Origin: Deltaproteobacteria bacterium RIFOXYD12_FULL_56_24 | Lineage (GTDB): Bacteria > Desulfobacterota > Desulfobulbia > Desulfobulbales > Desulfurivibrionaceae | Length of the DNA: 64,000 nt | NCBI GenBank assembly: GCA_001799285.1 | Contig: MGTD01000011.1 | Location: forward strand, 809 to 64,808 | Direction: 5' to 3' | In this document: positions 5,955-63,937 of the stretch, one piece after another | Numbering within the stretch: the stretch's first letter is position 1 | How the letters are laid out: every line of letters starts with the position of its first letter | Notes under the pieces: model-generated | What the model saw: only the letters and a program-made list of their open reading frames with translations | Told to the model about the DNA's origin: nothing | The model's database searches: none | Position numbers and translations under genes: made by a program

Positions 5955-6090
5955 CAATTTTGATGAACTCGTAACAACCTGAAAAGTTTACAGGCCCACA
6001 ACACAAAATCAAACACTTACACATTAATACCCGTTGTAATCGTGGTTTTTTACGATTTCAACAATCTTGATGGAATCGTAACAACTAAAA
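5955..6090. repeat. Direct repeat TTGATG..TCGTAACAAC and small hairpin
   Basis: TTTTGATGAACTCGTAACAA near 5957 recurs as TCTTGATGGAATCGTAACAA near 6065, about 108 bases apart. Around the second copy, TACGATTTCAA and TTGATGGAATCGTA (about 6049-6080) form an imperfect inverted repeat. No gene is seen between the response regulator and hisD (5832-6330). Confidence 0.5.
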
Positions 6091-6095
6091 AACGT

Positions 6096-6277
6096 AACGC
6101 CAAGACGCAGAGGCGCAAAGGCAACATGCTGAAATAAAAGGATTAGGAGCCGTTAAAAAACAACCTGCACAGTCTAGATCATTTCGTTACGGCTCCTTAT
6201 GCCGTTCGGGGGATAACAATCGTTCAAGTTATTTTTTAACGACGGCTTAAAACTTTGCGACTCTGCGCCTCTGCGTT
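6096..6277. repeat. CGCAGAGGCGCAAAG inverted-repeat element with an internal insert
   Basis: A 25-base left arm (6096-6120) pairs with a right arm (6253-6277) at 21 of 25 positions. A partial relative at 28036-28096 has the same inner sequence (AAGGCAACATG.TGAAATAAAA.GATTA then AAACTTTGCGACT) but lacks about 103 bases present here at 6146-6248. Those 103 bases have their own inverted ends (GCCGTTAAAAAAC near 6150 and TTTTTTAACGACGGC near 6233) plus AGGAGCCGT/ACGGCTCCT pairs, as an inserted element would. A third relative is at 48703-48765. Confidence 0.65.
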
Positions 6278-6330
6278 AAAAAATGACCTGCGAGTCTATA
6301 AATCTTGGTCAATTGGCTGGGCGGCACGGC

Positions 6331-17401: not shown

Positions 17402-17476
17402 GGGCGATTAGCTCAGCGGGAGAGCACTGCCTTCACACGGCAGGGGTCACTGGTTCGATCCCAGTATCGCCCACCA
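17402..17476 (+). tRNA. tRNA-Val (anticodon CAC)
   Basis: Cloverleaf by eye: acceptor GGGCGAT (17402-17408) with ATCGCCC (17466-17472), D arm GCTC/GAGC, anticodon stem CTGCC/GGCAG with loop TTCACAC giving CAC, T arm ACTGG TTCGATC CCAGT, discriminator A and an encoded CCA at 17474-17476. It reads GUG codons. Confidence 0.97.
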
Positions 17477-17540: not shown

Positions 17541-17792
17541 GTAAGCGATCACAGGGCACCACATGTTGTCGGCACTTCTGCCGACGATTGACAGTGGCGA
17601 TCGGTCCGGCTCATGTACAAAAGTACGCATCGCCGTCCCGCTTGCCGCAATCTGCACCACCCTGTGACCGCTTTTAGCTGAGTTGAGCAGCTTGTCGGAT
17701 TTTATGCCCTTTAGGGTGCAAAACGAAACTTATACCCGAAGGGTGATTCTGAGGTTATTTGACCTTTGCGAGTTTGCCCCATGATCGGTTAT
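17541..17792 (-). repeat. Structured palindromic element, copy 1 (long form)
   Basis: The core outer stem pairs AAGCGATCACAGGG (left, from 17543) with CCCTGTGACCGCTTT near 17670-17684. Inside are hairpin GTCGGC-acttct-GCCGAC and a larger hairpin GGCGAT..GTAC-aaaa-GTAC..ATCGCC. After the core follow AGCTG/CAGCT and ACCC/GGGT hairpins and an end GCCCCATGATCGGTTAT that mirrors the left end. Stem imperfections are G.U on the minus strand, so the element is oriented minus. It lies between tRNA-Val and the pseudouridine synthase gene, which point toward each other. Confidence 0.85.
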
Positions 17793-21650: not shown

Positions 21651-21760
21651 AAAAAGCGGCCGCAGGGTGCCGCAGATGCGCGAAAGAGGCCTGTCCGCAA
21701 TACATTGGTATGCGGGCAGGCCGATGACAAAGCAGATGTGGTGCCCTGCGACCGCTTTTT
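21651..21760 (+). repeat. Structured palindromic element, copy 2 (short form)
   Basis: The arms are AAAAAGCGGCCGCAGGG (21651 on) and CCCTGCGACCGCTTTTT (to 21760). The stem continues with TGCCGCA against TGTGGTGCC through three G.U pairs on the plus strand. The inner hairpin is GGCCTG-t-CCGC..ATAC-attg-GTAT..GCGG-g-CAGGCC, followed by the family motif GATGACAAAGCAGATG. It lies between moxR and the DUF58 gene, so it must be transcribed as part of that operon, in antisense. The moxR stop codon overlaps its right end. Confidence 0.88.
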
Positions 21761-22673
21761 AAGGTACCGCAACCTCGGCGAACCAGGCCGCCAGCGATGC
21801 GCTGCCGCCCAGGGTGTCGCCCTGCGCCTGTTGCAGGCGATGGCCCACCACATGGGGCAGGACGATTTGAACGTCTTCGGGTAAAACGAAGTCGCGGCCT
21901 GCCAGCAGCGCCCAGGCACGGGCGGCGCCAAGCAGGGCCAGACCGGCGCGGGGGGAAAGACCGGTGAGAAAACGGGGTGAGCGTCGGGAATATTCGAGCA
22001 GCGCCTGGACATAGTCGAGAAGGGCCGGGCTGACCGTGACCGCGCGCGCCAGCTCCTGGGCCTGCACCAACTGTGCCGGGCTCAGCACCGGTTTAAGTTC
22101 CGCCAGCAGTTCGCGCCGGTCGCGCCCGGCCAGTAAGGCGCGTTCGGCCGCAGCCTCCGGGTAGCCCAGCTCGATGCGCAGCAGAAAGCGGTCCAGTTGC
22201 GACTCGGGCAGGGGGAAGGTGCCGATCTGATTGGCCGGATTTTGGGTGGCGATGACGAAAAATGGTTCCGGCAGGGGGCGAGTTTCGCCTTCGCTGGTGA
22301 CCTGCTGCTCCTCCATCGCCTCCAGCAGGGCGCTCTGGGTCTTGGGGGTGGCGCGGTTGATCTCGTCGGCCAGGACCAGATGGGCGAAGATCGGCCCGGG
22401 GTGGAAGCGGAACTCGCCGGTGCCGCGTTCGTACACCGCGACGCCGAGGATGTCCGCCGGCATCAGGTCCGAGGTGAACTGGATGCGGTTGAAGCGTAGC
22501 CCCAGGGTGGTGGCGAGGACATGGGCCAAGGTGGTTTTACCCACCCCCGGCAGATCCTCGATGAGCAAATGGCCGCGCGCCAGCAGACAGGAGAGGGCGA
22601 GGCGGATTGGATGCTCCTTGCCCAGGATAATGCTGCCGGCCTGGGCAATGACCTGATTCAGGAGAATATGCAT
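21759..22673 (-). CDS. moxR: MoxR-type AAA+ ATPase
   Basis: The Walker A block is EDLPGVGKTTLAHVLA near residues 39-54, Walker B is HLVLADEINRATPKTQSALLEAMEE near 105-130, sensor 1 is FFVIATQNPANQIGTFPLPESQLDRF split across 140-165 and arginine-finger-type sequence FLLRIELGYP follows. MoxR ATPases act as chaperones or activators for partner proteins, here the DUF58 and TgpA products downstream. The length is 304 residues. Confidence 0.95.
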   Translation of the reverse strand: MHILLNQVIAQAGSIILGKEHPIRLALSCLLARGHLLIEDLPGVGKTTLAHVLATTLGLRFNRIQFTSDLMPADILGVAVYERGTGEFRFHPGPIFAHLVLADEINRATPKTQSALLEAMEEQQVTSEGETRPLPEPFFVIATQNPANQIGTFPLPESQLDRFLLRIELGYPEAAAERALLAGRDRRELLAELKPVLSPAQLVQAQELARAVTVSPALLDYVQALLEYSRRSPRFLTGLSPRAGLALLGAARAWALLAGRDFVLPEDVQIVLPHVVGHRLQQAQGDTLGGSASLAAWFAEVAVP

Positions 22674-23485: not shown

Positions 23486-24745
23486 ATGAATACAAAAGCA
23501 ACCATGACGGATTCGCAAAAAGAAAAAAAGCGTACAGATTCACCAGAGATGCCGAACCAAGGCGGCCTTTTTTTCAGCCTGCTGGAAGATTGCCTGAGCC
23601 ACAACACCTTTGTCAAGCTCGTGCTGGGCAAGTACCATGGCCCGGAACCGGGACTGGACCGGGTCTTTGTTCGGCGACTGGCCCTTAAGGATGGGGAGAG
23701 CCTCTCTTTTCTTTATCGCTACCAGACCAGGGATGTTACCAAAAACCTACCGATTCCGGCGGGGATTGCGGCCATTCGCGATATGTTTGCCATCGCCTTC
23801 AACAATCTGCACTTGCAGACGGTGAGCGAGGATATCCAGCTCTCGCTCAACAAGAAGGGCAGATACAATCTGCAACGGGGCAAGGGTGCTCCGCGGGAGG
23901 CCGCCCCCCAAGAGCATGACCGCGCCAAGGAGCGCTTTCTCGAGCTGACCGCACCGTTTCTGAGGGAGCTGGGGGTCACCAACTCCCAGCAGCAGCTTAT
24001 CCCCTCCATGTCGCGCAAGTGGAAGCAGATCAATAAGTTCATTGAGGTGTTGGACCATGCCCTTGCCGCTTCGAAGCTGAAAGGGAAAGAGCGGTTGCAG
24101 GTGGTAGATTTCGGCTCGGGCAAGGGCTACCTGACCTTTGCCATGGAGGAATATCTGCGTGCCGGCCTGGGGCTTAGGCCCGAGGTGACCGGGGTGGAAT
24201 TGCGGGAGGATCTCGTCAATCTGTGCAGCAAGGCCGCGAAAAAGTTGCGGCTTGATACCCTGTCTTTCGTGCAGGGCGATATCCGGAGCTACACGCCAAA
24301 GGGAATCGACATCATGATCGCCCTGCACGCCTGCGATGTGGCCACGGATTACGCCATGCACCTGGGCATCCGCGCCGGGGCTTCGATCATCATGTGCGCC
24401 CCGTGCTGCCACAAGCAGCTCAGACCGCAGATGCACAGTCCGGCGGTGCTCAAGCCCATGCTCAAGCACGGCATCCATCTGGGCCAGGAGGCGGAGATGG
24501 TCACCGATTCCCTACGCGCCTTGCTCCTGGAAGCCTCCGGTTACGAGACCCAGGTTTTCGAGTTCATTTCCCTGGAACACACGAGCAAGAACAAGATGAT
24601 CCTGGGAGTGAAGGGGAGCGGTCCGGTGAACCAGGCGGAGATTCTGGCCCAGATCAGGGTGATTAAGGAGTTTTACGGTATCCGGGAGCATTGCCTTGAG
24701 ACGTTGTTGCTGGGGGACGGTTTGGGCCAGGGCGGCCGCCGATAA
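23486..24745 (+). CDS. Class I SAM methyltransferase, Methyltransf_32/RRNAD-like
   Basis: The SAM motif is VVDFGSGKGYLTFAMEEYL near residue 206, preceded by the typical SRKWKQINKFIEVLDHAL helix. IALHACDVATDYAM and MCAPCCHKQLRPQ, the His/Cys block of this group, follow. The N-terminal 150 residues are an extra domain with HNTFVKLVLGKYHG and DMFAIAFNNLHLQ. Eukaryotic relatives are METTL25/RRNAD1-like proteins of unclear substrate; bacterial substrates are not known. The gene ends three bases before element copy 3. Confidence 0.85.
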   Translation: MNTKATMTDSQKEKKRTDSPEMPNQGGLFFSLLEDCLSHNTFVKLVLGKYHGPEPGLDRVFVRRLALKDGESLSFLYRYQTRDVTKNLPIPAGIAAIRDMFAIAFNNLHLQTVSEDIQLSLNKKGRYNLQRGKGAPREAAPQEHDRAKERFLELTAPFLRELGVTNSQQQLIPSMSRKWKQINKFIEVLDHALAASKLKGKERLQVVDFGSGKGYLTFAMEEYLRAGLGLRPEVTGVELREDLVNLCSKAAKKLRLDTLSFVQGDIRSYTPKGIDIMIALHACDVATDYAMHLGIRAGASIIMCAPCCHKQLRPQMHSPAVLKPMLKHGIHLGQEAEMVTDSLRALLLEASGYETQVFEFISLEHTSKNKMILGVKGSGPVNQAEILAQIRVIKEFYGIREHCLETLLLGDGLGQGGRR

Positions 24746-24748
24746 CAA

Positions 24749-24884
24749 GTAAACGTTCACCGGGCACCTCATCTGCTTTGTCAGCGGCCTGCTCATGTGC
24801 GACTTGCACACTTCGCAGGCCGCTTTGTCGGACACTTCTGCCGACAATTGACACGCGCATCTGAGGCACCCGGTAAACGTTTAC
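24749..24884 (-). repeat. Structured palindromic element, copy 3
   Basis: The end stem GTAAACGTTCACCGGG pairs with CCCGGTAAACGTTTAC at 15 of 16 positions. Inside are two hairpins: AGCGGCCTGC with GCAGGCCGCT (inner GTGC/GCAC), and TTGTCGG with CCGACAA. Together they make a three-way-junction layout. Departures from Watson-Crick pairing are G.U on the minus strand. Here the CGTCGGC-type hairpin sits on the other side of the main hairpin compared with copies 1, 8 and 9. Confidence 0.88.
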
Positions 24885-24984
24885 AGTCCGGTGAAATTTG
24901 CACGTTCAACGATACTGGTGAACGATTACGATAACAAAGCAGCTGAGGCGCTGCCGGACCGTTACCAAGATCGGAGCAAAATAA

Positions 24985-28035: not shown

Positions 28036-28096
28036 AAGGCAACATGTTGAAATAAAATGATTAAAACTTTGCGACTTTGCGCCTCTGTGTTAAAAT
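28036..28096. repeat. CGCAAAG-family repeat, deleted or insert-free copy
   Basis: It matches the inner and right parts of the element at 6096-6277 (AAGGCAACATGTTGAAATAAAATGATTA then AAACTTTGCGACTTTGCGCC) without the 103-base internal block and without the left arm. Confidence 0.6.
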
Positions 28097-37345: not shown

Positions 37346-38421
37346 TGGCTACTGTGACAGAGGGTGGAAATACGGCGGGGCGATTGAGCGAAAACGAAAT
37401 CAGGCCGGCGGAATTGCTTGCCGGGCAGGAGGCCGCTTTTGCCCGCGATGTGGCCCGCTTGCAGCATCGGTTTGCCGAGTTTGTGACGGTCTCCTGCCCG
37501 GCCTGTGGTGCTGCCGGGAGCGAGCAGGCTTTCGAGAAATACGGTTTTTCCTTCAAATCCTGCAATGGCTGTAAGACCCTCTATATGTCGCCTCGCCCGT
37601 CGGAAGAGGTGATGGCCGACTATTACCGCAATTCCGAAAACTATGCCTATTGGGCCGAGCATATTTTCCCAGCCTCGGAGTCCGCCCGCCGGGAGAAGAT
37701 CCACAAACCCTGGCTGGCCAGGGTGTTGGCTTATTGTGATCGCTTTCAGGTTGGGCGAGGTACCTTGCTCGAAATCGGCCCCGGTTTTGGCACCTTTTCT
37801 TCGCTGGCTATTGAGCAGCGGGCCTTTGCGCGGGTGATGGCGGTTGAGCCCACACCCGAACTGGCCGAGGCTTGCCGTCGGCGCGGGGTGGTGGTGTTTG
37901 AAAAAAGGGTGGAAGACCTTGCGGAAGGGGAGATCGCCGAGGCGGATGTGGTGGCCGCCTTTGAAGTGATCGAGCATCTTTTCGAGCCATCGCGACTGCT
38001 TACCGGTATCTCCCGGGTGCTGCGACCAGGAGGATTGCTGGTCCTCTCCTGCCCCAATGGTCAAGGGTTTGATGTCGCTGTCCTGGGGCCGGGCTCCAAG
38101 GCGGTGGATACGGAACATGTCAACCTGTTCAACCCGACTTCGCTCAGCCTTTTGGTGCGCACCTGCGGGTTTGAAGTTTTGGAAGTGAGCACCCCCGGAA
38201 GACTCGATGCCGAGTTTGTCCACGATGTCATCGTCCGGGGTGAATACGATGTGACCGGGCAACCGTTTTTGCGGCGGGTTCTGCTCGATGAGTGGGAGCG
38301 GCTGGGGAGTGATTTTCAGCAATTTCTGGCGGATCATCAGCTGTCTTCCCACCTGTGGCTGGTGGCCAGGAAGCCCGCTGAAGGTAACCGATCACGGGGC
38401 AAATTCACAAAGGTCAAATAA
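37345..38421 (+). CDS. SAM methyltransferase with N-terminal zinc-ribbon
   Basis: Four cysteines (SCPACGA near residue 50 and KSCNGCKTLYMSPRP near 70) form a zinc ribbon typical of sugar- and lipopolysaccharide-locus methyltransferases. The SAM fold follows: LLEIGPGFGTFSSLA, MAVEPTPELAEACRR, VVAAFEVIEHLFEP and LRPGGLLVLSCPN. The target is probably a glycan hydroxyl or amidino group. The ATG overlaps the preceding stop (TAATG). The last dozen codons (GNRSRGKFTKVK) are encoded by structured element copy 4, so the original C-terminus was probably replaced. Confidence 0.88.
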   Translation: MATVTEGGNTAGRLSENEIRPAELLAGQEAAFARDVARLQHRFAEFVTVSCPACGAAGSEQAFEKYGFSFKSCNGCKTLYMSPRPSEEVMADYYRNSENYAYWAEHIFPASESARREKIHKPWLARVLAYCDRFQVGRGTLLEIGPGFGTFSSLAIEQRAFARVMAVEPTPELAEACRRRGVVVFEKRVEDLAEGEIAEADVVAAFEVIEHLFEPSRLLTGISRVLRPGGLLVLSCPNGQGFDVAVLGPGSKAVDTEHVNLFNPTSLSLLVRTCGFEVLEVSTPGRLDAEFVHDVIVRGEYDVTGQPFLRRVLLDEWERLGSDFQQFLADHQLSSHLWLVARKPAEGNRSRGKFTKVK

Positions 38422-38537
38422 CCACGAAACAAGCGACCACAGGGTGCCGCAGGTTGCGGCAAGCGGGACGGCGATGCGTACTTTTGTACATGAGCCGGGC
38501 CGATCGCTGCAAGATGTGGTGCCCTGTGATCGCTTAC
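38384..38537 (+). repeat. Structured palindromic element, copy 4
   Basis: It starts GTAACCGATCACGGGG and ends CCCTGTGATCGCTTAC, which are complementary except for a few positions. A second left arm, AAGCGACCACAGGG, begins at 38431. The inner hairpin is GGCGAT..GTAC-tttt-GTAC..ATCGC. The ACCC/GGGT module present in copies 1, 5 and 8 is missing here. The first 38 bases are coding (end of the methyltransferase). Confidence 0.88.
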
Positions 38538-42562: not shown

Positions 42563-45500
42563 ATGTCATTAAGAATCAACACCAACATCGCAGCATTGAC
42601 CGCTCATAGCAACATGATCAAGAATGACAACGGCTTGAGCGCTTCATTGGAGAAATTGTCTTCTGGCCTGCGGATTAACAAAGCCGCAGATGACGCTGCC
42701 GGCATGGCCATTGCCGACGCCCTGAAGTCTCAGTTCCTGGGTCTTGGCCAGGCGGTCAGAAACGCCAGTGATGGTATTTCCATGGTGCAGACCGCGGATG
42801 GCGCCTTGGACGAATCCATTAAGATCGTTAACACCATCAAGACCAAGTCAATCCAGGCGGCCCAGGACGGGCAGACCACGGACTCGAGAAAGGCCATCCA
42901 GGCGGATATTACCAAGCTCCTGGAAGAGCTTGATGCTATTGCTAAGACCACGGCTTTTAACGGCCAGAAACTGCTGTCCGGCAATTTTACCAATAAGAAA
43001 TTCCAGGTTGGCGCTTACTCGCAGGAAACGGTAAGTATCTCCATCGCCTCTGCAGAGTCGACCAAGGTTGGTCATGTCAACACTTCTCAGTTGACTTTTG
43101 CCAATGTCGGGACTGCCGAACTTTCCATCTACGATCAGCAGGGTACCGCTTATAATCTGAGTGCCATCGCGATCTCTAACGACAACACTCGTGAACACAG
43201 CTTGGGCGCGGTGGCTGATGCTATTAACAAGCTTTCTGACGTGCTTGGTGTCTCCGCCTCTGCCGTTGTTCGTTCGACCACCAGCACTGCTGTGGCTGCT
43301 GGTTCGACCGGCAGCGACTTTGCTATTAACGGTCAAATCATCGGTACTGTGGATGTGCTGGCCAGTGATTCCACTGGCGCCTTGGCCAAGGCGATCAACG
43401 CTAAGACCACCGATCATGGCGTTTTTGCCAGTGTGGATTATTCTGGCAAGATGACCTTGACCTCTAACGATGGCAGGGCTATCGTGGTCACCGGCGATGA
43501 TGGCGATGCTTTCGGTTCTGTCTCTATGGATACCTTGGGCTATATCACCCTGACCCAGTCTGGCTCGTCTCAGGCGAGGATCGAAAACTCCGGCACCGCG
43601 GCGATGGGCTACGCCGTCTCCACCGTGGCTGGTAATATCCAGCAGGATGCGGATACCGCCACCGCTGAAACCACAGCGGCCTCTCTCCTCAAAACCGATT
43701 CTATTCTCACATCGGGCACGGTCCTTGGCGCCGGCACCGCGATCACCAACGATGTCGCCACTACAGGAGTATCGGCCACCACCGGCGCTTTCACCGTTGC
43801 TTCCGGTTCCGAGTTGACCGCCGCCACTGTGCTGAATTCCGGCACCACTATGGCCCAGGCCATGACCGTTGAAGGGTTTACCGTCTCCGGCAGCACCTCG
43901 ATCGCCGGTACTTCTATCCTGACTGATCTCACGGTATTGGCATCGGGCACCACGCTTACCGCAAGCATCAACATTGATACTACAACGGCTCTCGCCGCCA
44001 CTACGCAAGTTTCCGTCGCCGCGCTTTCCTCCCTGGCCTCGGGCACGGTTCTTGGCTCAGGCACGGTGCTTACCAACGATGTCACCATTGCCGCCACCGG
44101 TGCATTGAACGGTAGCGTAACCCTGGCCGCGCTTTCCGACCTGGCTTCGGGGTCGGTGCTGGCTGCCGGTACGGTCCTCACCAACGACATCACCATCGAC
44201 GGCAAGACCGCGGTTGGCGATATCATCGCCTTCACCGGCTCCACCTTGATCACCGGCACGGAGCTACAGTCCGGCACCGCGATCAGCAATGATATCGCAA
44301 TTGCTGGATTCACCGTAGCCGGTGTGGTGGGTGGGACTGTGGCAGCCGGCACACAGCTTGCGAGTGGCACGGTTCTGCAGGGTGGTACCATTATCTCCGA
44401 TGCGGATAGGACGGCCATGGCTGGAATGACCGGCTATGTTGCAGGCAATTTCATTGATAATGGCAATAGCACATGGACAGTCTCTGGCGCTGCCAGTATG
44501 ACCATCTCCGGTGTCAATGCTACTGGCGGTGGTGGTGTGCAAACGTTTACGTTGACTTCTAGCGCTCTCCTCAGCGCTGAGACCACGGTTAGTGGTGGTA
44601 CAGTCATTGGTGACGGTTCTCAATTCAACGGAGACGACCTGACCCTTTCCTCCGGCTCGGTACTGACCGCCAACATGACCCTGAAGGCCGGATCGATTCT
44701 CTCGGGGAACACCATCCTCAAAACCGGCTCCTCCGCGGTGGGTGATGATCTGACCCTGGCCGGGGACCATATGAACCTTGCAAATGAGATGACTCTGCTG
44801 GCTACCTCGCAAATCGCCAGTGGTTCGACCGTGAATGCGGATTCCACCACCGTTTCGGATAGCCTGACCCTGCTGGGTGACCATGTCCTGACGGTGGCGA
44901 TGACCCTGGGTGAAGGTTCAAACCTGCTGGAAGGTTCGGTCCTGCAAACCGGTTCCTCCACCTCGGGTGTAGTTTTGACCCTGAATGGTGACCAGGCCTT
45001 AGGCGCCACCATGACCCTCGCTGTCGGGTCGACGGTATCCGGCGGCAGTACGCTGGCTACCGGCTCGGTGGCCGCTGCCAATGACCTCACCCTCGATGTC
45101 GACCAGACCTTGACCGCAGATCTGAGCCTCGGCGTCGGCTCGCTGGTGAACAGCGGCAGCACCCTGGCGGCCGGCTCGGTGGCGGCAGCCGATGATGTTA
45201 CCCTCAGCGGCAGCAACACCCTCACCGCCGACATGACCCTGGCGATCGGTTCGACCCTGGCCAGTGGTTCAACTTTGGAAGACGGTTCTACCTTCGGGGC
45301 GACCATCACCCTGGCGGCTAGCGTAACCGTGGACGGCGCCGGGATGAACCTGGCGGCCGGTTCGATGGTCGCCGATGGCAGCACCATTGCCTCTGGTACC
45401 GTGCTGGCTAACGATATCATCGCCTCCTTTGGTGGTGTTACCTCACAGTATACCGCCGGCACCACCTTGACAGATGATGTTGTCTTGGTCGGCGACCATA

Positions 45501-45943
45501 CCCTGGCCAGTGACCAGGATGTGGCGGCCGATTCCATATTGCTGTTAACCTCCGAACTGGCAGCCAATGACGCCGACGGCTCCACCGGTTCCGGCGCCTT
45601 TGCAACCCAGGGCAGCGCCACCATGTCCCGGCTGTCTGAGATCAGTGTTCTTACCCAGGAAGGGGCGCAGACAGCAATCGCGGTTGCTGAATCGGCGTTG
45701 AAGGATCTGGATAAGGTGCGGTCTGATCTCGGTTCCGTACAGAACCAGCTGACCTCCACCATTGCCAACCTGAGTGCCACCAAGGTTAACATCGCTTCTG
45801 CTGAATCCAGCATCCGTGACGTTGACTTTGCTGAGGAAGCTGCAAACTTCTCCAAGATGCAGATCCTCACTCAGGCCAGCTCTTTTGCCATGGCTCAGGC
45901 CAACGCCAGCAGCCAGACTGTTTTGAGTCTGCTGCAGGGGTAA
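42563..45943 (+). CDS. fliC: Giant flagellin with repeat-rich central domain
   Basis: The conserved D0/D1 ends are present: MSLRINTNIAALTAHSNM, KLSSGLRINKAADDAAGMAIA and NASDGISMVQTADGALDE over residues 1-180, and SALKDLDKVRSDLGSVQNQL, ASSFAMAQANASSQTVLSLLQ over about 1045-1126. Between them lie roughly 860 residues of Gly/Ser/Thr/Ala-rich sequence, compared with about 200-300 in a normal flagellin. From about residue 693 to 914 there are six near-tandem units of 36-38 residues, patterned LTLxGDxxLxxxMTLxxGS then xLxxGSxLxTGS. An earlier set (about 365-620) uses SGTVLxxGTxLTND. The pattern suggests stacked beta turns or a solenoid on the filament surface, and is rich in Ser/Thr for glycosylation. 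GGAGGAAG lies six bases before the ATG. Confidence 0.95.
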   Translation: MSLRINTNIAALTAHSNMIKNDNGLSASLEKLSSGLRINKAADDAAGMAIADALKSQFLGLGQAVRNASDGISMVQTADGALDESIKIVNTIKTKSIQAAQDGQTTDSRKAIQADITKLLEELDAIAKTTAFNGQKLLSGNFTNKKFQVGAYSQETVSISIASAESTKVGHVNTSQLTFANVGTAELSIYDQQGTAYNLSAIAISNDNTREHSLGAVADAINKLSDVLGVSASAVVRSTTSTAVAAGSTGSDFAINGQIIGTVDVLASDSTGALAKAINAKTTDHGVFASVDYSGKMTLTSNDGRAIVVTGDDGDAFGSVSMDTLGYITLTQSGSSQARIENSGTAAMGYAVSTVAGNIQQDADTATAETTAASLLKTDSILTSGTVLGAGTAITNDVATTGVSATTGAFTVASGSELTAATVLNSGTTMAQAMTVEGFTVSGSTSIAGTSILTDLTVLASGTTLTASINIDTTTALAATTQVSVAALSSLASGTVLGSGTVLTNDVTIAATGALNGSVTLAALSDLASGSVLAAGTVLTNDITIDGKTAVGDIIAFTGSTLITGTELQSGTAISNDIAIAGFTVAGVVGGTVAAGTQLASGTVLQGGTIISDADRTAMAGMTGYVAGNFIDNGNSTWTVSGAASMTISGVNATGGGGVQTFTLTSSALLSAETTVSGGTVIGDGSQFNGDDLTLSSGSVLTANMTLKAGSILSGNTILKTGSSAVGDDLTLAGDHMNLANEMTLLATSQIASGSTVNADSTTVSDSLTLLGDHVLTVAMTLGEGSNLLEGSVLQTGSSTSGVVLTLNGDQALGATMTLAVGSTVSGGSTLATGSVAAANDLTLDVDQTLTADLSLGVGSLVNSGSTLAAGSVAAADDVTLSGSNTLTADMTLAIGSTLASGSTLEDGSTFGATITLAASVTVDGAGMNLAAGSMVADGSTIASGTVLANDIIASFGGVTSQYTAGTTLTDDVVLVGDHTLASDQDVAADSILLLTSELAANDADGSTGSGAFATQGSATMSRLSEISVLTQEGAQTAIAVAESALKDLDKVRSDLGSVQNQLTSTIANLSATKVNIASAESSIRDVDFAEEAANFSKMQILTQASSFAMAQANASSQTVLSLLQG

Positions 45944-48684: not shown

Positions 48685-48702
48685 AAGAGCAGCGTAAAAA
48701 CA

Positions 48703-48765
48703 AACGCAAAGTCGCAGAGGCGCAAAGAAATCGAAGAAAAGAACTCTTTTTTGCGTCTTTGCGTT
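48703..48765. repeat. CGCAAAG-family inverted repeat
   Basis: Left arm AACGCAAAGTCGCAGAGGCGCAAAG is at 48703-48727 and right arm TTGCGTCTTTGCGTT at 48751-48765. The arms pair with AT-rich sequence in the loop. Related to 6096-6277 and 28036-28096. It abuts structured element copy 5. Confidence 0.65.
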
Positions 48766-48774
48766 AGTTACTTC

Positions 48775-48982
48775 GTAACCGATCACGGGGTAAACCCACA
48801 AAGGTCAAATAACCACGGAATCACCCTTCGGGTATAAGTTTCGTTTTGCGCAGACAAGCTGCTCAACTCAGCTAAAAGCGGTCACAGGGTGCCGCAGGTT
48901 GCGACAAGCGGGTTGGCGATGCGTACTTTTGTACGTGAGCCGGACCGATCGCCGCAAGATGTGGTGCCCTGTGATCGCTTAC
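48775..48982 (+). repeat. Structured palindromic element, copy 5 (long form)
   Basis: Ends GTAACCGATCACGGGG and CCCTGTGATCGCTTAC. A left extension holds ACCC-ttc-GGGT and AGCTG/CAGCT hairpins, then a second left arm AAGCGGTCACAGGGTGCCGCAG that pairs with the right end. All four early stem imperfections are G.U on the plus strand. The inner hairpin is GGCGAT..GTAC-tttt-GTAC..GATCGCC. It lies in the leader region of nadA. Confidence 0.88.
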
Positions 48983-50109: not shown

Positions 50110-51258
50110 ATGCAAGAAATCTACTTTGACAACAATGCCTCCACCCCTTTGGCCCCAACGGTGCGGGAGGCCATGTCCCCCTATCTGGCCGAATGGTTCG
50201 GCAATCCGGGCAGTTCCCACCATTTCGGCGAGGCTGCCCGGCGAGGTCTGGAGCTGGCCAGGGAGCAGGTGGCCGGGCTGCTTGGCTGCCATCCGGCTCG
50301 ACTGGTCTTAAACAGCGGCGGCACCGAAGGCAACAACACCGCCATCTTCAGCGCGGTCTGGGCCAATCCCGCGAAAAAGCACATTATCTCGTCGCAGGTC
50401 GAGCACGGCTCGGTGCTGGCGCCACTCGAGTTTCTTGCCGGTCAGGGCTATGAAGTGGAGCTGCTGGGGGTGGACGAAAACGGCGGTCTTGATCTGGAGG
50501 CGCTCAAAAGGGCGATCCGGCCGGACACCGCTCTGGTCTCCCTGATGGGAGCGAACAACGAAACCGGGGTGATCTGGCCGGTTGGCCAGATTGGTGGTAT
50601 CTGCCGGGAGCGGGGGGTGTTGTTTCACTGCGACGCCATCCAGCTGGCCGGCAAGGCACCCATCGCGGCGGAAGCGCTGGAGGTGGATTATCTCACCATC
50701 GCCGGCCATAAACTGCATGGTCCCAAAGGGGCCGGGGCGCTCTATGTCCGTCGCACCGCGCCGTTTACCCCGCTGATCATGGGCTCCGGCCAGGAAAACG
50801 GTCGGCGGGCCGGCACCGAAAACGTCCCCGGCCTCGTCGGCCTCGGGCAGGCCTGCGCGCTGGCCATGGGGGTGGACGAGGCGGCGCATCAGCGGCTGGC
50901 CGCCCTGCGGGATTGTTTGGAGGCCGGGATTATCGCCGTGATCCCCGAGGTGCGAATCAATGGCGCAGCTTCGCCCAGGCTGGTCAACACCACCAACGTC
51001 AGTTTTCGGCATGCGGCCTCGGCCGGACTTATCCAGGATCTCGACGCGGGCGGTATCGCCGTTTCCGCCCATGCCGCCTGTGAGAGCGGCGACCTGGATC
51101 CCTCGCATGTGTTGCGGGCCATGCGGGTGGAGGAATCCTTCCTGCACGGAACCCTGCGCATCAGTCTGAGCCGTTACAATACCGAGGCAGAGGTCGCGTC
51201 CTTGTTGGCCTTTTTGCCGGAAGCAGTAGCCAAATCCAGACAGGGCTTCGCCATGTAA
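50110..51258 (+). CDS. nifS: Cysteine desulfurase, NifS/IscS family
   Basis: Takes sulfur from cysteine for Fe-S assembly. EIYFDNNASTPLAPTVREAM opens the fold, then NPGSSHHFGEAARRG, LNSGGTEGNNTAIFS, PLP lysine in TIAGHKLHGPKGAGALYV, GQENGRRAGTENV and the catalytic Cys in HAACESGDLDPSHVL. Adjacent to nadA, it probably matures the NadA cluster. The stop TAA is made by the first bases of structured element copy 6. Confidence 0.95.
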   Translation: MQEIYFDNNASTPLAPTVREAMSPYLAEWFGNPGSSHHFGEAARRGLELAREQVAGLLGCHPARLVLNSGGTEGNNTAIFSAVWANPAKKHIISSQVEHGSVLAPLEFLAGQGYEVELLGVDENGGLDLEALKRAIRPDTALVSLMGANNETGVIWPVGQIGGICRERGVLFHCDAIQLAGKAPIAAEALEVDYLTIAGHKLHGPKGAGALYVRRTAPFTPLIMGSGQENGRRAGTENVPGLVGLGQACALAMGVDEAAHQRLAALRDCLEAGIIAVIPEVRINGAASPRLVNTTNVSFRHAASAGLIQDLDAGGIAVSAHAACESGDLDPSHVLRAMRVEESFLHGTLRISLSRYNTEAEVASLLAFLPEAVAKSRQGFAM

Positions 51259-51360
51259 ACGTTCAGCAGCACAGCATCTGCTTTGTCATCGGCCTGCTCA
51301 TGTGCAAAAGCACACTTCGCAGACCTCTTTCGCGCATCTGCGGCACGGCTGAACGTTTAT
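51255..51360 (-). repeat. Structured palindromic element, copy 6 (shortest form)
   Basis: Ends GTAAACGTTCAG and CTGAACGTTTAT (12 pairs, one G.U). The inner hairpin is GGCCTGC..ATGTGC-aaaa-GCACAC..GCAGACC, and CAGCATCTGCTTTGTCATC follows the family consensus in reverse. Its first four bases contain the nifS stop codon. Confidence 0.88.
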
Positions 51361-51439
51361 ATTTTAGAGAGTGAGCCACGTTTTTTTGTTTTTGACGAAC
51401 GATTACGTTGCTTCCCAGAAAAAAGAAAAGGAGCGGAGT

Positions 51440-53284
51440 ATGTGCGGAATAGTCGGTTATGTGGGGCAGCGCCATGTCCTGCCCATTCTTCTCGAAGGGT
51501 TGAAGCGTTTGGAGTACCGGGGCTATGATTCCGCCGGGGTGGTGTATGTATACGGCGGCAAGCTCCAGAAGTACCGGGCCGCGGGCAAGCTCGGTCGGCT
51601 CGAGGAGTTGCTGGAGACGGTGCGGGACCGCGACAGCCACATCGGTCTGGGTCATACCCGCTGGGCCACGCACGGAGCGCCTTCCGAGCTCAATGCCCAC
51701 CCGCACTGCGATTGCAGCGGCGACCTGGTGGTGGTGCATAACGGCATCATCGAGAATTATCATGCTCTCCGGGAAGAGCTGAAGGGGAGGGGGCATGTCT
51801 TCCGGTCGGAAACCGACACCGAGGTGTTGGCCCATCTCATCGAGGAGCAGCTCGCCTCCGGCGATCTGGTCAAGGCGGTTCGCCAGGCCTTAAAAAAGGT
51901 CGAAGGCTCCTATGCCATCGGGGTTTTGTGGGCCGGCCAGCCGGACCGGCTGGTGGCGGTGCGGAATCAAAGCCCCCTGGTCCTGGGGCTTGTCGAGGGG
52001 GGAGGCTGTCTTATGGCCTCGGATATTCCCGCCCTGCTTCCCTACACCAATCAGGTGGTTTTTCTTGAGGACGGCGAGCTTGCCGTCCTCAAGCAGGGGG
52101 AGTGGCAGGTACTGAGCCTGGCCAATGGCCGGAAAGTGGTCAAGGAGACCAAGACCATCGAGTGGAACGCAGCCATGGCCGAGAAGGGTGGCTATCGGCA
52201 TTTCATGCTTAAGGAGATCTTCGAACAGCCCCAGGCCATTCTCAATACCTTCCGGGGGCGGCTCGCCCCGGAAACCGGCAGGGTGCAGCTGCCGGAGATA
52301 GGCCTGAGCCCTGCGGAGCTGAAAAAAATCAGCCGTATCTCCCTGGTGGCCTGCGGCACCTCCTGGCATGCGGCCCTGGTGGCCAAATACTGGCTGGAAA
52401 AATGGGTGGGTATCCCGGTGGAGGTGGACATCGCCTCGGAGTTCCGCTACCGCCGGCTGCTGCTGGATGAAACCGTGATGGTGGTACCCATCTCCCAGTC
52501 CGGGGAAACCGCCGACACCCTGGCGGGGTTGCGGCTGGCCAAGAAGATGGGGGCCAAGGTCATCGCCATCTGCAATGTGCTGGGCAGCACCATCACCCGG
52601 GAGGCGCACGGCACGATCTATACCCACGCCGGGCCGGAGATCGGAGTGGCCTCGACCAAGGCCTTCACCTGCCAGCTTACCGCCCTGCTGCTGTTCACCC
52701 TTTTCTTAGGCGATATCCGCAAGACTATTGCCCCCAAGGATCGCAAGGATATCGGCCAGGCCCTCCTCGAGCTGCCCGGCCTCATGGAGCAGGAGATGCC
52801 CCGTTTGCAGGAGGAAACGGCCCGCATTGCCGAGGCCTTTGCCCACAGCCGGGATTTTCTCTATCTGGGCAGGGGGAGCAATTTTCCCATCGCCCTGGAG
52901 GGGGCTTTGAAGCTCAAAGAGATATCGTACATCCACGCCGAAGGTTATGCGGCCGGCGAACTCAAGCATGGACCCATCGCCCTCATCGACCGGGATATGC
53001 CGGTACTGGCCCTGGCCCCCCGGGACAGCGTTTATCAAAAGCTTATTTCCAACGTGGAAGAGGTCAAGGCCCGGAACGGCAGGATCATCCTCGTTGCCAA
53101 TGCGGGCGACAAAAATTGTAAGCGTATCGCCGAGCAGGTGATTACGGTGCCGGTCTGTCACGAGGAGTTGAACCCGATCCTCTTTGTCCTGCCCCTGCAG
53201 CTGCTGGCCTATGAGATTGCCGTTCTCCGCGGCTGCGATGTGGATCAGCCCCGCAACCTGGCCAAGAGCGTTACGGTGGAATAA
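51440..53284 (+). CDS. glmS: Glutamine--fructose-6-phosphate aminotransferase
   Basis: Makes glucosamine-6-phosphate, the entry to UDP-GlcNAc and so also to the PseB substrate. The start at 51440 gives MCGIVGYVGQRH with the N-terminal nucleophile Cys exposed after Met removal; a frame from 51371 would bury it. GAGCGG precedes the ATG. The glutaminase domain includes LGHTRWATHG and HPHCDCSGDLVVVHNGIIENY split over 70-100. Two SIS domains follow (VACGTSWHAAL, VPISQSGETADTL, YLGRGSNFPIALEGALKLKE), ending QPRNLAKSVTVE. The length is 614 residues. Confidence 0.97.
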   Translation: MCGIVGYVGQRHVLPILLEGLKRLEYRGYDSAGVVYVYGGKLQKYRAAGKLGRLEELLETVRDRDSHIGLGHTRWATHGAPSELNAHPHCDCSGDLVVVHNGIIENYHALREELKGRGHVFRSETDTEVLAHLIEEQLASGDLVKAVRQALKKVEGSYAIGVLWAGQPDRLVAVRNQSPLVLGLVEGGGCLMASDIPALLPYTNQVVFLEDGELAVLKQGEWQVLSLANGRKVVKETKTIEWNAAMAEKGGYRHFMLKEIFEQPQAILNTFRGRLAPETGRVQLPEIGLSPAELKKISRISLVACGTSWHAALVAKYWLEKWVGIPVEVDIASEFRYRRLLLDETVMVVPISQSGETADTLAGLRLAKKMGAKVIAICNVLGSTITREAHGTIYTHAGPEIGVASTKAFTCQLTALLLFTLFLGDIRKTIAPKDRKDIGQALLELPGLMEQEMPRLQEETARIAEAFAHSRDFLYLGRGSNFPIALEGALKLKEISYIHAEGYAAGELKHGPIALIDRDMPVLALAPRDSVYQKLISNVEEVKARNGRIILVANAGDKNCKRIAEQVITVPVCHEELNPILFVLPLQLLAYEIAVLRGCDVDQPRNLAKSVTVE

Positions 53285-53309: not shown

Positions 53310-53467
53310 GTAACTGATCACAAGGTAGGCGACCAAGTGCAGCGCCGTATCCCCAACTGTAAGCGATTGCAGGGTGCGGCAGATGCGCGACAGAGGCCTG
53401 AGAGCTATACATATGGTATGCGAACAGGCCGATAACAAAGCAGATGTCGTGCCCTGTGATCGCTTAC
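53310..53467 (+). repeat. Structured palindromic element, copy 7
   Basis: The core is 53359-53467: GTAAGCGATTGCAGGGTGCGGCA pairs with TGTCGTGCCCTGTGATCGCTTAC over 23 positions, and all five departures are G.U on the plus strand. The inner hairpin is GGCCTG..ATAC-atatg-GTAT..CAGGCC. A decayed left extension starting GTAACTGATCACAAGG at 53310 mirrors the right end, as in copies 4 and 5. The downstream bioH-like frame runs into its right half. Confidence 0.88.
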
Positions 53468-55606: not shown

Positions 55607-55840
55607 GTAAGCGATCACAGGGCACCACATGTTGTCGGCACTTCTGCCGACGATTGACAGCGGCGATCGGTCCGGCTCACGTACAAAAGTACGCGTCGCC
55701 AGCCCGCTTGCCGCAACCTGCGGCACCCTGTGGCCGCTTTTAGCTGAGTTGAGCAGCTTGTCTGCTCAAAACGAAACTTATACCCGAAGGGTGATTCCGT
55801 GGTTATTTGACCTTTGTGGGCTTATCCCGTGGTTGGTTAC
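55607..55840 (-). repeat. Structured palindromic element, copy 8 (long form)
   Basis: Nearly identical in plan to copy 1: left GTAAGCGATCACAGGGCACC, hairpin GTCGGC-acttct-GCCGAC, hairpin GGCGATCGG..GTAC-aaaa-GTAC..GTCGCC, right core arm GGTGCCGCAGG-type in reverse, then AGCTG/CAGCT and ACCC-gaa-GGGT hairpins and the end CCCGTGGTTGGTTAC. Oriented minus. It fills the gap between bioD (+) and the DUF2892 gene (-), whose stop codon is the next base. Confidence 0.9.
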
Positions 55841-56059
55841 TTATTTCCGGCAGCAACCCTGGCCGGGACGGTTTTCCGGTACTCCAAGTTTCTTGAGGAT
55901 GGTGGCCAGCGGGCAGAATTTGCTGAAGCCGTACTGGAGAAGGTTGGCTCCGACAAAGGCGGTGAAGAAATACCAGTAGGGATGCAGCCAGGTTCCCAGA
56001 GCCAGGCTGAGCAGGATGAAAGCGCCGGCAAGTACATGAACCCAGTCCGTGACGATCAT
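55841..56059 (-). CDS. DUF2892 (YgaP-type) inner-membrane protein
   Basis: A 72-residue protein with two transmembrane stretches (WVHVLAGAFILLSLALGTWL and YWYFFTAFVGANLLQYGFS) and the FCPLATILKKLGV motif of DUF2892, the membrane part of rhodanese YgaP. Here there is no rhodanese domain. It follows an ArsR gene by 30 bases and is probably under its control. Confidence 0.9.
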   Translation of the reverse strand: MIVTDWVHVLAGAFILLSLALGTWLHPYWYFFTAFVGANLLQYGFSKFCPLATILKKLGVPENRPGQGCCRK

Positions 56060-58428: not shown

Positions 58429-58488
58429 CATGGCGTTTCCTCCGTAATCATTTCCCATGGAAGCAAAATTTTTGGTAGCCTTGGGATG

Positions 58489-58617
58489 GTAGCCGTTTAG
58501 CAGTGCCGCAGATGCGCGGAAGAGGTCGGTGAAGTGTGCTGTTGCACATGAGCCGGCCGATGACTGTCAATCATCGGCGGCAGCGCCGATAACGCAGATG
58601 TACTGCTGGATGGCTAC
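58489..58617 (+). repeat. Structured palindromic element, copy 9
   Basis: Ends GTAGCCGTTTAGCAGT and ACTGCTGGATGGCTAC: 16 pairs, all three departures G.U on the plus strand. The inner hairpins are GGTCGG..GTGTGC-tgtt-GCACAT..CCGGCC and ATCGGC-ggcagc-GCCGAT, giving a three-way-junction plan. The dinG stop codon (TAG, minus strand) lies in its right end. It sits between dinG and ispB. Confidence 0.88.
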
Positions 58618-63468: not shown

Positions 63469-63628
63469 GTAACTATCCAGCAGCACCGCATCTGCGTTGT
63501 TGCACCCAGAGGGTATAAGTTTCGTTTGGGCAGGCAAGCTGCCCAACTCAGCTATATCAGCCTGCTTATGGGCGCCAGCACACTTCGCAGGCTTCTGCCT
63601 AGCAGCTACGGCACTGCTGGATAGTTAC
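63469..63628 (-). repeat. Structured palindromic element, copy 10 (internal module form)
   Basis: Ends GTAACTATCCAGCAG and CTGCTGGATAGTTAC are perfectly complementary over 15 bases. Further in, CACCGCA and TACGGCA pair with G.U on the minus strand. The ACCC..GGGT/AGCTG module that flanks the core in copies 1, 5 and 8 is here inside it (GTTGCACCCAGAGGGTATAAG, GGCAAGCTGCCCAACTCAGC). The main hairpin is AGCCTGC..GCAGGCT. Confidence 0.88.
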
Positions 63629-63937
63629 GGGTTGGGTTGTTTTTGTTCGTTTCCGGCCTTGAGCTGGATAGTTATGTTTTTTGTTGGCTGTCATGGCATG
63701 ATTATTTTCATGGCCTCTTTCGTTTCCGTGCGGGGCAATCCTGCCGGTTACAGGGGTACTATGGTGCAAAACCGCGATTTCTTCAAGCATATTTCCGGCC
63801 TGGTCGAGCCCTGCTGATATCGGCTTGACTTCACGGAGAGGGGTGCTTATGTTGGCACACTCAAACCATTATTTTTCCCGGCGCCTTTTTTCCGGCAAGG
63901 GTGCTTTGCCGATAACATACTAACCTGGAGGCATGTT

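Follow-up and report, generated by a model that had tools for sequence, protein, structure and literature searches.

Miniature transposons (MITEs) at the 3′ ends of genes are already known from the QMITEs of Coxiella burnetii and from enterobacterial repeats. In the relevant passages of one report, all insertions of QMITE1 and QMITE2 into functional C. burnetii genes are placed at 3′ ends, with overlaps of 1–50 bp and for a reason that is called unknown there, and in enhC the stop codon stands directly before the element in one strain and a C-terminal extension is found in another (PMC5896051). The passages that deal with ERIC/RU-1, RU-2 and other enterobacterial MITEs describe their fusion to the 3′ ends of genes, which receive a new C-terminus and a new stop codon (PMC2759123, PMC2229807). 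Chunjie, a MITE of Geobacter uraniireducens of ~178–235 bp, is mentioned as having entered an operon that was left undisturbed (cited in PMC10969869). For the IS66 family, the section on element ends gives termini that start with GTAAGCG, together with 8-bp repeats (PMC11946415).

The repeats in the window, the whole 64-kb stretch of DNA that was analysed, are non-autonomous MITEs of the IS66 type (Table 1). A first-pass annotation had noted that their GTAA or GTAG ends repeatedly supply stop codons to neighbouring genes, and had named five gene ends, those of nifS, dinG, moxR, a DUF2892 gene and the gene starting at 23486. All five stop positions are as described there. The span given for the copy at the nifS stop, 51255–51360, breaks off after 106 bp, whereas the element is 152 bp long (51255–51406). 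The annotation had also overlooked the 8-bp duplication on either side of clean copies.

Table 1. MITE copies and the nifS stop codon in the 64-kb window, with target duplications where recognised.
Feature	Position	Strand	Remarks
MITE, source of the finding	51255..51406	+	GTAAACGTTC..GAACGATTAC; 152 bp; no recognisable target duplication (3/8)
TAA stop of NifS-like aminotransferase gene 50110-51258	51256..51258	+	bases 2-4 of the element's GTAA
MITE	17541..17792	+	duplication 7/8 (ACCTTGCC/GCCTTGCC)
Degenerate MITE copy	21654..21762	-	left edge approximate; end TTAAAAAGCGG overlaps the MoxR-type gene stop
MITE	24749..24929	+	perfect 8-bp duplication GATAACAA at 24741-24748 and 24930-24937
MITE	38384..38537	+	perfect duplication CGCTGAAG; inside the 3′ end of a methyltransferase gene
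MITE	48775..48982	+	duplication 7/8 (GTTACTTC/GATACTTC)
MITE	53310..53467	+	perfect duplication ACTTTTCA; 25 bp past the gene stop at 53284
MITE	55607..55840	+	duplication TTATTTTC/TTATTTCC; right copy contains the DUF2892 gene stop
MITE	58444..58617	-	where the dinG-like gene and the downstream gene formerly overlapped at ATGA
MITE	63469..63675	+	duplication 7/8; ends GTAACTATCCAGC..GCTGGATAGTTAT

In the genome, one core pattern of the repeat family gave 204 matches compared to 21 for a reversed control, and an end pattern of a second subfamily gave 223 compared to 0. The family comprises hundreds of copies, mostly 150–260 bp long, which terminate as 5′-GTAA…TTAC-3′ with an 8-bp target duplication outside both ends. 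Exact GTAA was present at 497 of 589 GTAA-like ends, which had been preselected for at least three of four matches to GTAA. Within 713 kb around copies, 162 family-supported elements were delimited by inverted repeat and duplication. The duplication was 8/8 in 95 of them, 7/8 in 51 and 6/8 in 16, and 8/8 duplications were found in none of the 39 candidates without family support. An 8-bp duplication accompanies the insertion of these MITEs. The GTAA/GTAG ends had prompted an account of the repeats as mainly REP/REPIN (RAYT-type) sequences, which was ruled out by the 8-bp target duplications. When an RNA family was looked for, an Rfam scan of the 64-kb window matched one tRNA only; a tRNA gene lies at 17402–17473, 67 bp upstream of the element at 17541–17792.

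Outer and inner arm sequences vary from one subfamily to another, and within each copy the arms stay complementary, as in GTAAACGTTCAGC..GCTGAACGTTTAT compared to GTAAGCGATTGCAGGG..CCCTGTGATCGCTTAC (the copies at 21654–21762, 24749–24929, 51255–51406 and 53310–53467 were compared). Given these complementary arms, the several end types look as if they had coevolved. Another short repeat, unrelated to the MITEs and rich in CGCAAAG/CGCAGAGGCG (families D13 and D15), occurs in the window at 6089–6120, 6247–6281, 28061–28095 and 48696–48727, one copy of which adjoins the element at 48775. The open reading frame at 42563–45943 (1126 aa) has degenerate internal repeats with units of ~84 bp and 54 bp (families D2 and D3), and the spacing of the units is mostly 105–108 bp.

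A search for the IS66 transposase (PF03050) gave no match in the source genome, which is a draft, or in any of 15 genomes of the genus, drafts of which may lack repeated IS elements; the transposase was present in 39 of 116 genomes of the order. L390, a 1729-bp IS66 element with an 8/8 duplication, encodes a 475-aa protein matched by the IS66 model and carries GTAACTATCCAGC at both ends, and these 13-bp ends are common to L390 and the commonest MITE subfamily. L392, a 1608-bp element that also has an 8/8 duplication, has closely similar ends (GTAACTACTCAGC) and a product that matches PF03050. For the GTAAGCGATCACAGGG MITE subfamily, no autonomous IS66 partner was found among the 30 loci examined. 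The MITEs are abundant in the source genome and present in its genus relatives, yet none of the 15 genomes has the transposase. The parent IS66 element may be extinct in the genus or missing from the draft assemblies.

Compared with orthologues that lack the element, the nifS product is not shortened, whereas the dinG product is shorter by one residue. The source genome is of the Desulfobulbaceae/Desulfurivibrio kind; for the NifS gene, the nearest named records belonged to Desulfobulbaceae bacterium UBA2273 (90% identity) and to further MAGs of deltaproteobacteria. In all 11 genus genomes with an orthologue, NifS ends at the same residue (GFAL; GFAM here), and an element is present at the nifS stop in five of them, at two different positions, and absent from six. 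The gene ends as CTG/CTA TAG TAAACG in G007 and G012 and as ATG TAA ACG in the source genome. The TAG of G007 and G012 is composed of TA and the first base of GTAA, so that the element's TAA stands directly behind it. In the source genome, nifS has probably lost three bases, which would have handed termination to the element's TAA and left the protein length unchanged. The 3′ end of nifS was struck repeatedly (L225, L234, L230, L233, L158 and L145, downstream of nifS). The element lies between TA and G in G000, G007 and G012 and two bases past the stop in G002 and G004. L158, from a distant Desulfobulbaceae genome, has a different GTAAAGG element two bases past the nifS stop, and in L145 the element lies ~60 bp further downstream.

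The dinG-like helicase gene (minus strand) ends with a TAG at 58616–58614, which is formed by bases 2–4 of the element end GTAG. In 11 of 14 genomes dinG has no element, and its TGA overlaps the start codon ATG of the gene that follows. In the other three (G000, G004 and G008), which have an element, dinG ends one residue earlier, in the TAG or TAA of the element end. In the window, GGAGGAAAC, including the ribosome-binding GGAGG, flanks the element 58444..58617 on both sides. Thus, dinG is a true case of stop supply, in which the element split a gene pair overlapping at ATGA and provides a TAG one residue early. By their alignment, the elements of G000, G004 and G008 suggest one old insertion. 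In trees G000 did not cluster with G004 and G008, so loss of the element, or repeated insertion at dinG, may also account for this distribution.

The TAA of the gene at 23486–24745 (24743–24745), three bases ahead of the element start at 24749, lies within the perfect duplication GATAACAA and is therefore older than the insertion. Likewise, the DUF2892 gene at 55841–56059 (minus strand; Pfam YgaP-like_TM, PF11127) has a TAA at 55843–55841 that directly abuts the element 55607..55840, and since this TAA lies within the duplication TTATTTTC/TTATTTCC it predates the insertion. The proposal that the elements supply stops was thus borne out at dinG; it did not hold for these two genes, whose stops lie in the duplication, or for NifS, whose length is unchanged. 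At the MoxR-type AAA ATPase gene (21759–22673, minus strand) the TAA at 21761–21759 overlaps the degenerate element end TTAAAAAGCGG and occupies the place of the element's TAA; no close moxR orthologues were found in the genus. A sixth case had been missed by the first reading. Here, the gene ending at 38421 extends 12 codons into the element at 38384, which entered the methyltransferase gene 17 bp before the ancestral stop and added 12 element-coded residues (GNRSRGKFTKVK). The nearest methyltransferase orthologue (L403) ends four residues past the shared VARK.

Distances between insertions and stop codons were analysed in the 713 kb around copies, drawn from the 3.04-Mb draft genome of 67 contigs. 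Genes were called on the draft genome with a home-made codon-pair caller (745 genes), using score cut-offs of 10, 15, 20 or 25 depending on the analysis. Empty sites were rebuilt by deleting the element and one copy of the duplication, with d as the distance from stop to element, so that a whole stop codon within the 8-bp target corresponds to d 0–5. Three of the 162 elements (6/8 duplication, matches at under 10 of the 14 end bases) were dropped, giving 159. A further 19 insertions lay >40 bp inside genes, several of them near start codons, and were excluded to give 140 non-disruptive insertions. The stop codon was wholly in the target in 27 of these 140, compared to 3.6 (uniform) or 4.3 (site-weighted) expected. 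When site motif and AT content were included in a regression based on 119 of the 159 insertions, with positions near old copies left out, the stop effect stayed (coefficient 2.2, p=1e-15).

For the gap analyses, gaps with old copies were removed (108 of 405 gaps in the count over all gap lengths). In clean gaps of 41–200 bp, 12 of 1044 positions were hit at d 0–5 compared to 4 of 3480 at d 6–25, which gives an OR of 10.1 for the stop site over the next 20 bases (p=1.5e-5). These counts and the 27 of 140 showed that insertions are biased to gene ends, as had been proposed, and that their distances differ from those of random intergenic positions. Only one insertion at d 0–5 was found in clean gaps >200 bp, and gaps of 0–40 bp showed no fall-off away from the stop (14.9, 9.8 and 16.7 per kb). 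A weaker second zone of raised insertion rate was located 16–45 bp upstream of start codons. An earlier within-interval test on 93 elements, each taken as uniform in its own gap, had given 19 compared to 12.8 expected. That first set was later superseded by the 159 elements, and the smaller excess is due to the many short gaps and to old copies within some of the long ones.

A stop triplet as the sequence target was also considered. Away from real gene ends, the frequency of stop triplets in the target was 0.36 for 80 insertions and 0.36 for 80118 positions; thus, the triplet itself is not the target. The stops that lay in the target were TAA in 12, TGA in 10 and TAG in 5 cases, and the corresponding numbers for all genes were 236, 253 and 104. 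In 11 insertions, which form a peak, the stop stands two bases ahead of the element; this peak was not counted as a separate effect, as the AT-rich target centre explains part of it.

The first-pass annotation had further held that the element ends the frame at gene ends. After 98 of the 589 GTAA-like ends were dropped as internal GTAA motifs, 317 outer ends with a duplication and 174 without one were available. The 165 gene ends that were scored comprise 122 whose stop lies ahead of the element, 6 that take in one to three of its bases, 24 that end in its terminal TAA and 13 that continue beyond it. Frames that enter the element therefore close in GTAA in 24 of 37 cases, where one third is expected (p=9e-5), and in this respect the claim stood. 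It did not extend to the 122 genes whose own stop precedes the element, often within the target duplication, or to insertions into genes with a duplication, only 10 of 20 of which were in frame (p=0.09). Without a duplication the share was 14 of 17 (p=5e-5), so that the excess lies mostly in copies for which the empty site usually cannot be rebuilt. On rebuilt sites, 12 of 22 insertions 1–34 bp before the ancestral stop were in frame (p=0.03); leaving out one weak gene and the forced cases at d=-1 reduced this to 8 of 18 (p=0.22). In-frame insertions on rebuilt sites cost 0–10 residues. The gene at C44:12384 (7/8 duplication), which we take to be MraY-like, has 359 residues in the rebuilt empty site and 359 in the occupied one. 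Automatic picks of the right end were unreliable at duplications of 3/8 or less, and the 7/8 and 8/8 cases and the nifS element length were used.

The probable explanation for these results is that IS66-type MITEs insert and are retained at gene boundaries, where the stop is kept or the frame is closed by GTAA. An IS66-family transposase, for which no gene was found in the genus, would move the MITEs in trans. Surviving insertions sit at gene boundaries, above all where the 8-bp target holds a stop codon, and on rebuilt empty sites the gene-side copy of such a target keeps the stop. After insertion just upstream of the stop, the frame continues into the element. Since either end of the element presents GTAA when read inward, one of the three possible frames is closed immediately, and entry in one of the other two usually ends after 8 to about 55 further codons. 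Copies that close the frame at once or leave the host stop intact would be retained preferentially, as suggested by the excess of in-frame closures, most of which comes from copies for which no duplication was detected. Retention is also favoured because the stop lies in the target more often among older copies without a close sister (8 of 21) than among the others (18 of 138, p=0.008). To judge from nifS, small deletions may later let the element's TAA take over from the host stop with no change in protein length. Genes that carry MITEs at their ends would stay almost unharmed.

Some targeting beside retention is indicated by the sharpness of the six-base hot spot, which was also present in copies whose duplication is perfect (OR 4.5, p=0.006). 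Taken further, a transposase complex might prefer the last bases of a gene directly, through DNA structure or through transcription or translation at the stop, with selection playing a minor part. Such a preference, which we consider possible but doubtful, would fit the ten-fold rate at the six stop positions compared to the next 20 bases, the hot spot in perfect-duplication copies and the stops in the target of 11 of 78 copies with a near-identical sister. However, stop triplets elsewhere were not preferred, the older copies are more concentrated at stops and not equally so, and a stop-specific mechanism does not predict the second zone before start codons. Retention by selection and targeting are not cleanly separated by the present evidence. 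We find it unlikely that the elements are kept by positive selection for a useful hairpin behind the stop, which might serve the end of the transcript, mRNA stability or the separation of overlapping genes. Five of five element pieces do fold into strong hairpins (z -3.7 to -9.8), and the nifS stop carries an element, at either of two positions, in 5 of 11 genomes of the same genus. But hairpins are expected of MITEs because of their inverted repeats, and 6 of 11 nifS and 11 of 14 dinG orthologues do without the element.

In a gene-dense genome, short gaps would place any tolerated insertion near a stop. The common insertions in short gaps, the missing gradient in gaps of 0–40 bp and the modest result of the first within-interval test agree with such an artefact, but it would not produce a ten-fold excess over the next 20 bases in clean gaps of 41–200 bp or an excess that remains with site composition accounted for, and we regard it as very unlikely. 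It is harder still to believe that the terminal GTAA is itself a target motif, comparable to the tetranucleotides of IS200/IS605-type or REP elements, by which stops ending in GTAA were chosen. The prevalence of exact GTAA at element ends would accord with this, as would the 14 of 24 GTAA-terminated genes without a detectable duplication. At either end of the element, however, GTAA is enclosed by the 8-bp duplications, which rejects the idea for the copies that have them, and the autonomous IS66 elements of the order have the same GTAA inside their duplications. Insertion with retention at gene boundaries is therefore the account that we prefer. In a bolder version, IS66-type ends would be built-in stop caps, and insertion at the final bases of translated genes would be a matter of targeting as well as of tolerance. 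The elements would then hold a near-neutral niche at stops, separate overlapping operon genes without breaking them and take over termination stepwise; this we offer as speculation, with the odds against it.

In the open-licence literature searched, we found no description of stop codons occupied by IS66-type MITEs, of stops within the target duplication or of a frame test. The results offer a measurable reason for hundreds of MITE copies in gene-dense genomes, in which the stop codon is the landing site and the first four bases of the element can replace it. Where orthologues in such genomes differ by a few residues at the C-terminus, the difference may be read as an insertion scar. The MITEs resemble the IS66 family in their GTAA ends and 8-bp duplications, and the GTAACTATCCAGC subfamily has the 13-bp ends of L390. 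They differ in that they have no transposase gene, are mostly 150–260 bp long and have no autonomous copy found in the genus. Chunjie is a MITE of similar size, likened to those here by its cited description, in which one insertion is described. ERIC/RU-1 and RU-2 are presented, in the passages concerned, as in-frame fusions that add a peptide, whereas here the frame is closed by GTAA or the host stop survives, so that usually no peptide is added. The preference for 3′ ends is shared with QMITE1 and QMITE2, which belong to another family; the text of that report does not mention IS66, and its relevant passages, unlike the present analysis, contain no distance or frame test and no stop in the target duplication (PMC5896051). 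The stop codon as landing site bears on the 3′-end preference of the Coxiella MITEs, which those passages leave unexplained.
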